This document shows positions 19,719-36,173 of a stretch of 37,424 bases of DNA, piece by piece. Each line of letters begins with the position of its first letter. Positions within the stretch are counted from its first letter, which is position 1. Both the position numbers and the translations under genes were made by a program. Origin of the DNA: Candidatus Saccharimonadota bacterium (GTDB taxonomy: Bacteria; Patescibacteriota; Saccharimonadia; Saccharimonadales; Saccharimonadaceae); contig JAFWNY010000025.1 in the NCBI GenBank assembly GCA_017510075.1, positions 1-37,424 of the forward strand, read 5' to 3'. A model generated the notes under the pieces. The model saw only the letters and a program-made list of their open reading frames with translations, was not told the DNA's origin and ran no database searches.

Positions 19719-21404
19719 TCAATCCAAACCAACATTAATTTTTTTACGCATTATCACCATCAACACTACTGGCATCAAATAAATCTGCAAAGCATTCGGC
19801 AATCCCGAGAAAAACAGCAAAGTCACCCCATACGCCACCAGTAAAGCCAGCAACGCCCCGCTCGCCGAGCTCCGAATCATCACCTTTATTACCAATACTA
19901 ACGTCAATATTAACAAAACTATACCCACTATCCCAGTCTCGAGCAGCAGTGAAGCGTATTCATTTTGCACAATTTCCTTCGGCGCCGGTGACAATCCCTC
20001 TGCGTACAGCGCCCACCCTGCACCACCTAACCCTACCCCGAATATCGCTGTCTTGAAATCTCGCTTCCACACCGCCACTGCCGCCCCAGTCAGCCTCAAC
20101 CTCGTATCTGTAGATTCCGCCACATACCCATCAAACACCGCCTCCTCCCTAGCGTCACTCTCCTCTAAAGCCCCAATTTCCTCCGGCTCCCCCGTTCCAT
20201 TTTCATCCGTGCCCCCACCTCTGTTATCCTCAGAGTTTTCCACAGGTTTTTCTACAACCTCATCACCTCTTATATCAATCACTCCTAGCGATAACTGGTT
20301 CACCACCTTCGCCACTCCGTCCGTATAAGTATCGTTGGTCGGCGACACCTGCGCCATCACCCCCTGCAAGTTCAGTGCACACACAAATGCACAGATGATG
20401 ATTAGCCACACCGTACCAAGAGCCCGAAAACGCTTAACTCGGGACCATAAGCTTGGGCGAACACCCTCGAGCGTGTCCCGAGTTAAGCGTTTCGGGCGAC
20501 AAATCACACTCATAAACACCATCGCCACGATAAATGCATAAATCGCTCCTCGCGAAAACGTCAAGAACAGCGTCATTGAGATAATAAAGAAGCATAATAG
20601 TAACAATTTGGAACCTAAAAAACGCGAGCCGGTTGTGGTTTTGACAACAGGTACGGACGAGGAGCCCGAACTGCAATTTGGGGCCGAGTCCGCCTGCCCT
20701 GTTGTCAAAACTACTCCGCGCGAGCGTTCAAGTTTCAAATTTTTACTATTATGCTTCTTTAAGTATATCCACGCCGCTATTATCGCCGGCGCGAGGAGCA
20801 AATTTCCCATGAACTGCGGCTCAATGGCAAATCCGTTCGGGTGAGGGAACCCAAACATATGATACGTACACCCAGGGCAAAGCAACGTACACTCTCTCGG
20901 CACTCCCGCTACATCTAGCATACACTGCACCACGCACCACGCACACACAAGAAAAGTAGCCCCAAAGAACCACTTCCACCACCTCCGCCGAAACTCCACA
21001 TCAAGCAGCCTCTTTAACTGCCACATCCCATACCCCGCGATATATATCAGCCACAATATCCCCACCGTCAACAGCCCTCTCACGAAATTTAACGACCACA
21101 GCACCGACACAGAAAGCCACACAGGGAACAACACCCACAACCACCATTTCCCTTTCAACCCCTTCCATAGAATCCGTCGTTTTATCATCAGCACCACCGC
21201 CACTGTGTCAAACACCACCAACCATATCAGCGGCAGAGAAAGCTCAAAATTCATCGCCTCCCCCCTCCCCAGTGTTATCACCGGATGATATGAGAAAAAC
21301 AGACACAGAGGCAGAATGTTTAAAAGGTTTCTAAATAAAAAATCAAAACCTAAAAAGCGCGAGCGTTCAAGTTTTGATTTTTTATTTAGAAACCTTTTTA
21401 ACAT
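19719..21404 (-). CDS. O-antigen ligase/polymerase-like (Wzy/WaaL) membrane protein with in-frame palindromes
   Basis: 561 residues with about 10-12 hydrophobic helices. The FGFPHPNGFAIEPQFMGN and TFSRGAIYAF stretches and the large loop (about 345-430) before NEYASLLLETGIVG match the O-antigen ligase/polymerase superfamily, which joins lipid-linked glycan chains. It follows a phosphoglycosyl transferase and a GT4 enzyme in one operon, fitting surface polysaccharide assembly. Three long inverted repeats lie inside the frame: at the start codon, between helices near residues 218-275, and near 303-328. They code for charged or low-complexity inserts (e.g. KLERSRFLG; RPKRLTRD...SRVKRFRALG) in predicted loops. 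The start ATG is the outer base of the first palindrome, 23 nt inside the upstream gene, with AAGGG before it; the real start may be further in. Confidence 0.75.
   Translation of the reverse strand: MLKRFLNKKSKLERSRFLGFDFLFRNLLNILPLCLFFSYHPVITLGRGEAMNFELSLPLIWLVVFDTVAVVLMIKRRILWKGLKGKWWLWVLFPVWLSVSVLWSLNFVRGLLTVGILWLIYIAGYGMWQLKRLLDVEFRRRWWKWFFGATFLVCAWCVVQCMLDVAGVPRECTLLCPGCTYHMFGFPHPNGFAIEPQFMGNLLLAPAIIAAWIYLKKHNSKNLKLERSRGVVLTTGQADSAPNCSSGSSSVPVVKTTTGSRFLGSKLLLLCFFIISMTLFLTFSRGAIYAFIVAMVFMSVICRPKRLTRDTLEGVRPSLWSRVKRFRALGTVWLIIICAFVCALNLQGVMAQVSPTNDTYTDGVAKVVNQLSLGVIDIRGDEVVEKPVENSEDNRGGGTDENGTGEPEEIGALEESDAREEAVFDGYVAESTDTRLRLTGAAVAVWKRDFKTAIFGVGLGGAGWALYAEGLSPAPKEIVQNEYASLLLETGIVGIVLLILTLVLVIKVMIRSSASGALLALLVAYGVTLLFFSGLPNALQIYLMPVVLMVIMRKKINVGLD
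20422..20497. repeat. In-frame palindrome IR2 in the Wzy/WaaL-like gene
   Basis: Left arm 20422-20444 and right arm 20476-20497 are inverted copies of 22 bp (left has one extra A), e.g. CGCTTAACTCGGGA against TCCCGAGTTAAGCG, with a 31-nt loop. It codes for a basic loop between two membrane helices. The frame stays open across it. Confidence 0.9.
20586..20760. repeat. In-frame nested palindrome IR3 in the Wzy/WaaL-like gene
   Basis: Outer arms 20586-20614 and 20732-20760 pair at 27 of 29 positions. Between them lie the two halves of the same 21-nt core found in IR1 (CTAAAAAACGCGAG at the left; CGCGAGCGTTCAA at the right), split by an insert. The insert itself holds inverted 14-mers GTTTTGACAACAGG (20638-20651) and its complement (20698-20711). 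CGCGAG is present on both sides (20623-20628, 20719-20724). From the first base of the left copy to the base before the right copy is 96 bp, or 32 codons. Confidence 0.9.
21316..21404. repeat. Palindrome IR1 spanning the Wzy/WaaL-like start and GT4 stop
   Basis: Arms 21316-21349 and 21371-21404 pair at 33 of 34 positions around a 21-nt core beginning CTAAAAAGCGCGAG. The right arm contains the end of the upstream GT4 gene (codons for YVKKVSK and stop) and the start codon of the next gene. The left arm is its inverted copy and now codes for FDFLFRNLLNI. Confidence 0.95.
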
Positions 21405-22509
21405 AATCCCTTATCTCTTTATCAAACCTTTCCGCACTAAACTTCTCCGCACTCTTCGCCACCTTCTCTCGATTAAATTTAAGTTTCTCAAATTCCAAAA
21501 TCCCCTCCGCCAACGCCGTCGCCGTCTGCGGCTTAAAGAGTAACCCATTTTTCCCATCCACCACATAATCGAGCGCCCCACCTGCGCCTAGGGCAACCAC
21601 TGGGCACCCAGCAGCCAAAGCCTCCACCGGCGCTATCCCAAACGGCTCCAGACTAGGGAAGAGGTATCCCTTCGCCCCCGCCAGATACTCCGCTAGTTCC
21701 CTTTTCTTCATCAGTGGCAAAAACTCCACCAGCTTAGTTCCCTGCGCTATTTTCACCAATTTCTTATGCTCCGGCCCCTCCCCTATCACGAGTAATTTCC
21801 TCTGCGCCATCAAGCACGCCTGCACCGCTATATCAATCCGCTTCCAATTCACCTGCCGACTGGCCGTAATATAATATTCTTTCTTTTTTGCTTTTACTTT
21901 AAAATCATCTATTTCTACTGGTGGTGCAATCACCACAGCATCTCTCTTGTAATACTTTTCAATCAAGCCTTTCGCATATTCACTGATTGTCACAAAATAA
22001 TCCGGCCCCTGTGCCGCTTTTTTATCTGCTCTGCGTAAAGGCCTCACCATAATCCGAAACGCAAATCTCACTAAAGGATTCAGCACCCCAAACCCCGGAT
22101 TCCGCAAGTAATCCTTGTACATCTGCCAATAATACTGCGTCGGCACATGACAATAACAGATGTGTAACCCCTCAGGATTCTTCGACGGCAACCCATGCGC
22201 GTGAAGCCACTTTCCCGACTTCACGGCCTTTGCCTCCGCTCCCGTCACCGAAATAATCAAATCGTATTCAGATAAATCCAGCCCTTCAAACCACTTCTGC
22301 CGCTTCGGCCCCAGTAGCCGCCTCAATTTCGCCGGATATTTCTGCAGCGACCCCGTCCTTACATCTGCATCACGAAACCAATCAATTCCCTTCGGGTCAT
22401 ACTGCGACGTATAAATCGGCGCCTCCGGATACATCTTATGTAGCTCCAGCAGCACCTTCTCCGCTCCCCCCACATTCGTCAACCAATCACATACCAGCGC
22501 TACTTTCAT
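21382..22509 (-). CDS. Family 4 glycosyltransferase
   Basis: 375 residues, GT-B fold retaining glycosyltransferase. N-terminal CDWLTNVGGAEKVLLELH is the acceptor-domain loop typical of mannosyltransferase-like GT4 enzymes. The C-terminal donor half has SRQVNWKRIDIAVQAC, GEGPEHKKL and the nucleotide-sugar motif FPSLEPFGIAPVEALAAGCPVVALGAGG (E-x7-E type) at about 285-312. It probably adds a sugar to the lipid-linked precursor made by the upstream phosphoglycosyl transferase, at the inner face of the membrane. Start overlaps that gene by 4 nt (ATGA). Its last codons lie within palindrome IR1. Confidence 0.9.
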   Translation of the reverse strand: MKVALVCDWLTNVGGAEKVLLELHKMYPEAPIYTSQYDPKGIDWFRDADVRTGSLQKYPAKLRRLLGPKRQKWFEGLDLSEYDLIISVTGAEAKAVKSGKWLHAHGLPSKNPEGLHICYCHVPTQYYWQMYKDYLRNPGFGVLNPLVRFAFRIMVRPLRRADKKAAQGPDYFVTISEYAKGLIEKYYKRDAVVIAPPVEIDDFKVKAKKKEYYITASRQVNWKRIDIAVQACLMAQRKLLVIGEGPEHKKLVKIAQGTKLVEFLPLMKKRELAEYLAGAKGYLFPSLEPFGIAPVEALAAGCPVVALGAGGALDYVVDGKNGLLFKPQTATALAEGILEFEKLKFNREKVAKSAEKFSAERFDKEIRDYVKKVSK

Positions 22510-34545: not shown

Positions 34546-34622
34546 GCACCGGTAGCTCAGTGGATTAGAGCACTTGTCTTCGGAACAAGGGGTCGTAGGT
34601 TCGAATCCTATCCGGTGTACCA
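34546..34622 (+). tRNA. tRNA-Arg (anticodon TCG), overlapping the reverse transcriptase end
   Basis: 77 nt with encoded CCA (34620-34622). Acceptor GCACCGG pairs with CCGGTGT, anticodon stem CTTGT/ACAAG, loop CTTCGGA, T-loop TTCGAAT. The last 15 nt are also the end of the reverse transcriptase gene on the other strand. Confidence 0.96.
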
Positions 34623-34970
34623 TCTGAACTCCCCCACCACCCCATCCATTTCCAACCTCGGCCATGCATTCATAAAATACCCCTTGTATGACTCATACGA
34701 GAGGGCATATTTTTTTGGATTATGCATTTTCAGCGTCTTCAACCTCCGCCGTATTCTCCGCACCGTGCCCGACAATGGCACCACCCTCAATCCACCCTTC
34801 CTATCTATATAATATCTATATCCTAAAAAAGCAAACCCCGCCTCCGTGCAGCAATTATATATCGCCGATTTTGGATTCACCTTCAATTTCAGCCTCTTGA
34901 GTTCCTTCTCAATTTCCACCCGCACTCGCATTAGTTCGGCCTTATCATACCCCAGTATCAAAAAAATCAT
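34608..34970 (-). pseudogene. DGR reverse transcriptase, C-terminal part after the frameshift
   Basis: Continues the reverse transcriptase in a different frame. After YMDDF, removing one T from the T7 tract would give LILGYDKAELMRVRVEIEK, then LKLKVNPKSAIYN and FAFLGYRYYIDRKGG. This is the normal RT order of motif 6/7 and the thumb region. The basic tail RRIRRRLKTL is typical of DGR enzymes. It ends at TAG 34610-34608, inside the opposite-strand tRNA-Arg. As written it has only an internal ATG inside the MDD codons and no good ribosome site, so it is likely not made separately unless by slippage or +1 frameshifting. It could also be a homopolymer error in the assembly. Confidence 0.85.
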
Positions 34971-35712
34971 CCATATACCTAATAAACCACCTACACCCCA
35001 GCACCTCTTTGATATAATGGTCTAAATCATTCAAATAATATATCGCCAAAAACTGCGATGTCATTGCTCCAATAGACAGCCCCTTCCCCTGTTCGTAATG
35101 AGGAATATCCGTATGATAATACGCGTTAAAACCATCAATCACCCTGTTTATATAAGGTTTATTCGTTTCACCCACAATTCGTCGTAATATCTCCAGTACA
35201 TCCCCGTCCTTTATCCTCCGCTCTAGCTTCTCAAACAATATCTCATGGTCTATCGTATAAAAATACTTGGACACATCTACTTTCATTGCATAGATTTTCG
35301 CCCCTGGACGCTTTGCCATCATCTGCGACAAATACCGTCGAAGCATCTTCGTAGCGTAAGACGACCCCATCCCAGTCCTTGTCGCTACATTGGTATCAAT
35401 CAAGGTCCGCTCTAGTAGTGGCAGCAAGTACTCTCTCGCCACGAAATGATTCACCACCTTATCTCTAATGGATTGGCTCATCACCAGCCTCGGCTTCGGT
35501 TCAAAAATCATAAAGCAACGATACTTATGCGGATAATACTTCCGCTGTTTTAGCTCCTCTAATATCTTATCCACCCTCACATGAGCAAACAGCATAAACT
35601 CAAACAACCCCTGCTTATTCTTGCAGGTATGCGACACCGTATTCCATGCCGAATACACTTTTTCGTATGTCAAAGCCTTGTCATAAATCCGCCTAGTCTT
35701 ACGATGTCCCAC
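34945..35712 (-). CDS. DGR reverse transcriptase, N-terminal and catalytic part
   Basis: Error-prone reverse transcriptase that copies the template RNA with changes at adenines. 255 residues as written: fingers and palm with DVSKYFYTIDHEILF (Asp146, first catalytic Asp), the DGR-specific IGAMTSQ at 214-220 (other group II-like RTs have QGxxxSP), and RYMDDF (246-250, the catalytic Asp pair). The frame stops five codons later (FDTGV, stop) because of a T7 tract; the rest of the enzyme is in another frame. It starts with GTG overlapping the last base of the Avd stop (TAGTG), so translation is coupled. Together with Avd, TR and VR this defines a DGR. Confidence 0.93.
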   Translation of the reverse strand: MGHRKTRRIYDKALTYEKVYSAWNTVSHTCKNKQGLFEFMLFAHVRVDKILEELKQRKYYPHKYRCFMIFEPKPRLVMSQSIRDKVVNHFVAREYLLPLLERTLIDTNVATRTGMGSSYATKMLRRYLSQMMAKRPGAKIYAMKVDVSKYFYTIDHEILFEKLERRIKDGDVLEILRRIVGETNKPYINRVIDGFNAYYHTDIPHYEQGKGLSIGAMTSQFLAIYYLNDLDHYIKEVLGCRWFIRYMDDFFDTGV

Positions 35713-36173
35713 TAGATTAATTCTTTCTCAACCAACCCTGCCGTTTTCTGTGACCCTGCCACAGGCATCTTTTTATCTTCATTTTTCACCCAAGCCCACA
35801 CGTAGCTCATCACAGCTTTTTGCTTTTCAGCACATATCTCAAATCTTCTCGCTGATGTCGCATCCAACTTTCTCTTTTCTTTACCACGATAGCATACGTC
35901 ACGAATTTCCTTCAAATACGTTTCCACCATCGCTAGTTCTATCTTCAAATCCATCAAATGGTGCTGCCTCTCCCTCCGCACCGTCATTGCCGCATGATAC
36001 ATTGCGCGCCACGCTCTGCCCATTGTCGTCCGCATCACCTCTCTATAATCACTAAACCCCGCTGGTATCTGTGGAATAATAAAAATTCTCAAATATTCAT
36101 CAAGATCCAACATCAACGACCTCATCTTAAAAGGTTCGTGGTCAGGCTTCTTATCATCACGTTTCTGAATCAC
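35712..36173 (-). CDS. avd: DGR accessory variability determinant (Avd-like)
   Basis: 153 residues, basic and mostly helical, with four predicted helices (about 15-35, 42-65, 68-97 and 100-130: MGRAWRAMYHAAMTVRRE, LMDLKIELAMVETYLKEI, SARRFEICAEKQKAVMSYVW). This fits the Avd / 23S rRNA intervening-sequence-protein fold, which forms a pentameric barrel, binds the DGR RNA and the reverse transcriptase, and is needed for template-primed cDNA synthesis. Position directly before the RT and after the TR agrees. GTG start with GGAAAGGGAAGAA upstream; the stop overlaps the RT start by one base. Confidence 0.8.
   Translation of the reverse strand: MIQKRDDKKPDHEPFKMRSLMLDLDEYLRIFIIPQIPAGFSDYREVMRTTMGRAWRAMYHAAMTVRRERQHHLMDLKIELAMVETYLKEIRDVCYRGKEKRKLDATSARRFEICAEKQKAVMSYVWAWVKNEDKKMPVAGSQKTAGLVEKELI

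Follow-up and report, generated by a model that had tools for sequence, protein, structure and literature searches.

Several families of short hairpin-forming DNA are mobile in a genus of Saccharibacteria, and their conserved cores are flanked by inverted arms that differ from site to site and that, at several sites, are of local origin. Our preferred reading, to which we give a probability of about 0.6, is that a core is captured during fold-back DNA synthesis that copies 15-35 nt of the target next to it in inverted orientation. Many of the copies lie in frame inside coding sequence, including essential genes. We found no described counterpart of this insertion pattern in the open-access literature, to which our search was limited.

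The window analysed is a whole contig of 37,424 nt from a 667,633-bp genome (G000; G numbers denote genomes and L numbers loci) that is 83% complete, and the closest relatives of its Wzy protein are all from Saccharibacteria, mostly from ruminant gut. A sequence-only reading of the window had noted that two inverted repeats, IR1 and IR3, share a core but have unrelated arms, and had proposed insertion of the core with inverted duplication of its target, or template switching at a fold-back. The observation is confirmed (Table 1). The IR1 core is CTAAAAAGCGCGAGCGTTCAA. The first 15 nt of the IR3 core (CTAAAAAACGCGAGC) and its last 15 nt each match the IR1 core at 14 of 15 positions. The best hairpin score in the window was 31, whereas six shuffled windows gave best scores of 10-12 and none at 16 or above. 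The arms of IR1 lie on the GT4 end and Wzy start, and those of IR3 on the Wzy segment that encodes KKHNSKN and LLLLCFF.

Table 1. Elements and genes in the window.
Position	Strand	Feature	Basis
21350-21370	-	IR1 core, 21 nt (minus strand TTGAACGCTCGCGCTTTTTAG); short form of the IR3-type core without its inner hairpin	Equals the product of a deletion between the two GCTCGCG repeats of the IR3 core, apart from one base
21316-21349	-	IR1 arm on the Wzy side (34 nt, one mismatch between arms); encodes FDFLFRNLLNI, start of the first membrane segment	Orthologues without an element go straight from the GT4 stop to the Wzy membrane segment
21371-21404	-	IR1 arm on the GT4 side; GT4 C-terminus ..YVKKVSK*, overlapping the Wzy start codon	
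20615-20731	-	IR3 core, 117 nt: conserved ends plus inner hairpin (inner arms 20638-20651 / 20698-20711)	Covariance model R1, built from 12 such cores
20585-20614	-	IR3 arm 3' of the core (30 nt); native Wzy membrane-segment sequence (KLLLLCFF), judged the original	Hydrophobic coding sequence also present in orthologues without the element
20732-20761	-	IR3 arm 5' of the core; inverted copy (encodes KKHNSKNLK), judged newly made	Absent from empty orthologues
20428-20492	-	IR2: arms 20428-20445 / 20475-20492 (18 nt, perfect), core 20446-20474 of another family	Same core type with other arms in L015, L054, L090, L092
19719-21404	-	Host gene: O-antigen ligase-like protein (Wzy_C)	Reads in frame through IR1, IR3 and IR2
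21382-22509	-	Host gene: GT4 glycosyltransferase	3' end inside IR1
34608-36173	-	Broken reverse transcriptase	RVT_1 match on 34945-35712; neighbouring short frames match no Pfam family
about 20230-20250		Repeated GTTTTCCACAGG (PVEN when translated), similar to a DnaA box	Recurs in variable loops of the GT4 and Wzy genes of relatives

The sequence-only reading described the IR1 core as split in two within IR3. This can be refined, because the IR3 core is a stable unit found in many genomes. The 12 aligned examples (IR3 and relatives) have 117-121-nt versions, and nearly the whole length pairs. Read on the minus strand, the core carries GCTCGCG near both ends. Joining the sequence across these repeats gives TTGAACGCTCGCG-TTTTTTAGG, and IR1 reads TTGAACGCTCGCG-CTTTTTAGG. 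IR1 therefore looks like an internal-deletion form of the same element. The exact 14-mer CTAAAAAGCGCGAG occurs once in the G000 genome.

The elements are not confined to the window. A blind hairpin scan of the G000 genome found 53 hairpins, and several fall into families with conserved cores and different arms: A (4 copies), B (8 copies), C (5 copies), E, F, G and the IR2 type. Family A and the IR3 type are related by sequence. Conserved cores at the apex are 16-139 nt long. Another group, family D (L047:4668, L039:7305, L003:19108 and L004:13539), has ATGGCATCGTGAGG / ATGGCACCGCAAGG motifs reminiscent of a T-box sequence, but its arms are partly shared and it may be a different kind of element. 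A genome from another family of the order (G040, L158:6300-6720) has an array of about six hairpins within about 400 bp that share a loop like CTCGGGCGCGTGAG and have entirely different 20-24-nt stems. A junction motif, (G/A)(G/A)NCAT, seemed to be shared by several families, but among 61 hairpins it gave 12 hits against 7% by chance and in only 2 of 26 families, and we do not claim it as general. A blastn search of IR3 against phages and a scan of viral contigs with an IR3-core pattern gave no match.

To test whether arms accompany the core, we built a covariance model from the IR3-type core alone, without arms. It matched 79 of 174 genomes of the genus, with up to 21 matches per genome, a lower bound because it equals the number of candidates scored. 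In a sample of 246 genomes of the order it matched only this genus, one of 132 genera sampled. We read 71 copies, of which 22 lie inside open frames. With ungapped scoring, 62 of the 71 have arm scores of at least 12, against 1.1% of mismatched left and right flanks. With small gaps allowed, 67 exceed the 99th percentile of mismatched flanks, and one copy (L213:3109) has no visible arms. The median arm length is about 22-23 nt, and most arms are 15-31 nt. Among 71 pairs of copies whose cores are at least 90% identical, the arms have a median identity of 0.60, as between unrelated cores. L204 and L205 have 99% identical cores, each with its own perfect or near-perfect 16-22-bp arms, and the pair L209/L210, also in the 98-99% range, likewise has unrelated arms. 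The exception is a group of three copies in genome G012 that lie in duplicated surroundings and have similar arms. Slow compensatory divergence of a shared stem cannot give this pattern. The proposal of the sequence-only reading is therefore supported, although the data do not establish that core and arm arrive in one step.

Orthologous sites occur empty and also filled with different cores. At the MurD/M16 peptidase junction, the two genes overlap tail to tail in eight genomes, with 40 nt between anchors, a best hairpin score of 4-7 and no long palindrome. In other genomes the site holds IR3-like cores (L184, L195, L276), A-type cores (L294, L296), B-type cores (L285, L288) or short cores (L299, L279), mostly flanked by arms that contain the MurD and M16 3' ends. 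L295 has a coreless palindrome with 11-bp arms. L276 keeps an older, decayed arm outside a newer inverted copy of the MurD end. In the Wzy loop, species carry IR3-type, IR2-type or F-type cores, or none. The right arm encodes the native membrane segment and the left arm is its inverted copy, which is hydrophilic because complements of Leu/Phe/Ile codons read as Lys/Asn/Gln/Ser. Filled sites are 134 nt longer than empty ones, which is close to core plus one arm (144), compared with 117 for the core alone and 171 for core plus two arms.

The GT4 loop and ValRS loop 1 behave likewise. The GT4 loop near residue 206 is empty in G000 and filled in L082, L084, L088, L089 and L100, and in L100 the right arm covers conserved Tyr-Tyr codons. 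The GT4-Wzy junction, the site of IR1, is empty in many relatives and filled in L082, L084, L091 (double) and L097. For IR1 itself it is not certain which arm is the original, because both overlap native coding sequence. Two surface loops of ValRS (L198:335-3277 and orthologues L236-L265) are insertion hotspots with many different cores in different species, all in frame. Loop 1 is empty in seven genomes with the short WDIAYDDIIVSTTRPE-type form. In these loops the arms mostly lie in variable sequence and do not by themselves show which flank was copied. Many intergenic copies (L184, L195, L196, L201, L215, L221) sit exactly between convergent genes with stop codons inside the arms, and might act as two-way terminators.

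The position of the copied arm appears to be fixed. Where the 3' end of a gene runs at least 16 nt into an arm, that arm is 3' of the core in nine cases and 5' in one. Several of the nine cases are orthologous and few loci are independent, so this is only suggestive. The Wzy loop, L091 and L276 agree, with the copy 5' of the core and the original 3'.

The stems of the core vary by matched changes on both sides with few intermediates. In 72 distinct cores, GT and AC mismatches are equal (30 and 31 among about 2,800 cells), and in the arms they are similar (18 and 26). An RNA under selection should favor G-U over A-C on its own strand. Selection on RNA folding is thus unlikely to keep the pairing, and maintenance at the DNA level is more likely. 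At orthologous F-type Wzy insertions (L085 and L088) the two arms changed in concert, which fits template switching between arms (PMC8794818, PMC8604942).

No enzyme was identified. A Y1 transposase (PF01797) was found in 8 of 170 genomes, but not in G000, G012, G018, G145 or G177, copy-rich genomes among them. Reverse transcriptases occur in 40 of 60 genomes of the genus, with two hits in G000, but three genomes with 5-7 copies (G018, G024, G078) have no RVT_1 match. SbcD and the SbcC Walker B domain passed the curated cut-off in none of 80 genomes of the genus, whereas 8 and 12 of 14 control genomes passed. SbcCD probably cuts hairpins and makes long palindromes unstable, and its apparent absence may explain in part why these insertions persist. 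In yeast, short inverted duplications, most of about 5-34 bp, arise by fold-back synthesis at microhomology next to a break, and distant fragments are also captured at breaks (PMC11724301).

We propose that IR1, IR2 and IR3 are insertions of small non-autonomous hairpin-forming families whose mobile part is the core. In this model, a 3' end at a break or stalled fork acquires the core, folds back on itself because the core is a hairpin, is extended by a polymerase for about two to three helical turns on its own strand, and is then joined to the other side. The product is X - R' - core - R, where R is native sequence and R' is new, and in-frame insertions into loops are tolerated. Fold-back synthesis, the one-step origin and the polarity are inferred. 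Species rather than strains were compared, so no insertion was caught between near-identical genomes. Coreless palindromes exist (L295; L098, 21-bp arms with a 7-nt loop), and palindrome formation and core capture could therefore be separate steps. Arms at one orthologous site diverge between species yet stay paired, so later arm homogenization certainly also acts. In L288 and L286 the arms do not obviously reach the conserved codons. A further possibility, slightly less likely than not, is a new mode of transposition in which hairpin cores that are different inside but have one common insertion pathway are added to target 3' ends in fixed orientation. Each insertion would build its own terminal inverted repeat by fold-back synthesis on the target strand, and the arms would be rewritten at every jump.

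The strongest alternative, although unlikely, is a two-step process in which cores insert without arms, or into short quasi-palindromes such as K-rich codons followed by L/F-rich membrane codons, and template switching during replication afterwards extends and perfects the arms. Short quasi-palindromes exist at some empty sites (L078, L092 and L098 at the GT4-Wzy junction), the F-type arms changed in concert, and template switching is known to create and repair hairpin stems (PMC8794818, PMC8604942). However, copies with 98-99% identical cores already have 15-22-bp arms that differ by site, only 1 of 71 copies lacks visible arms, and empty MurD sites have no long palindrome.

It is less likely that the core is reverse-transcribed onto a target 3' end and that the cDNA then folds back on the target strand. 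The apparent fixed polarity fits an end-specific start of copying and reverse transcriptases are common in the genus, but three genomes with copies have no RVT_1 match, although past activity is not excluded. There is also no excess of G-U over A-C mismatches on either strand, and no Rfam family matched (only tRNAs at the gathering threshold over six sources including the window). A preference of cores for the center of long palindromes that already exist is doubtful. Coreless palindromes occur at L295 and L098, and some known insertion sequences target bacterial palindromes (PMC1525189), but only one genome has a coreless palindrome at the MurD site against eight empty ones, and most empty Wzy and GT4 sites have no long palindrome. 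A single structured RNA or terminator whose outer stem is kept paired by compensatory mutations is largely refuted by the unrelated arms of near-identical cores; the core covaries strongly (21 of 41 pairs with double changes) and several copies lie between convergent genes, but GT and AC mismatches are equal, different cores occur at one site, and many copies lie in frame inside coding sequence. Chimeric fold-backs may arise in some amplification methods, but assembly or amplification artifacts are refuted because the same sites and core families recur in many independent genomes, in frame, with base changes matched in both arms.

Known small palindromic elements carry their ends with them, whereas here the ends are made from the target, so each copy records which flank was copied. 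If this holds, it is a distinct way for DNA to spread and a source of in-frame protein loops in essential genes (tRNA synthetases, glycosyltransferases, the Wzy ligase). It would also be a natural setting in which to study fold-back repair in streamlined bacteria that apparently lack SbcCD. The data also warn that strong covariation in a hairpin need not mean RNA function.

Coding palindromes in Nematomorpha mitochondria are long perfect inverted repeats inside functional genes with both arms coding, but no shared mobile core is described in the abstract of that work (PMC6649704). Quasi-palindrome and template-switch mutations make or perfect inverted repeats from local sequence (PMC8794818, PMC8604942). 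The Wzy and GT4 sites and the MurD junction agree with this in that one arm is an inverted copy of neighboring sequence, but such mutations bring in no foreign conserved sequence at the apex. Fold-back inverted duplications at yeast double-strand breaks (PMC11724301) are also local inverted copies next to a junction, but they are spontaneous and not associated with a conserved mobile core. MITEs and REPINs are short, non-autonomous and hairpin-forming, with many copies per genome. They keep terminal sequences and vary outside, whereas here the terminal arms vary, and REPINs depend on a Y1 transposase, which does not track with the copies. Rickettsia palindromic elements (RPE) are the closest in behavior, being small palindromic repeats of several families inserted in frame in many unrelated genes (PMC10969869). 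RPE copies of a family appear to be similar along their whole length and to keep their own palindrome, whereas here only the core is conserved and the arms are copies of the host locus.
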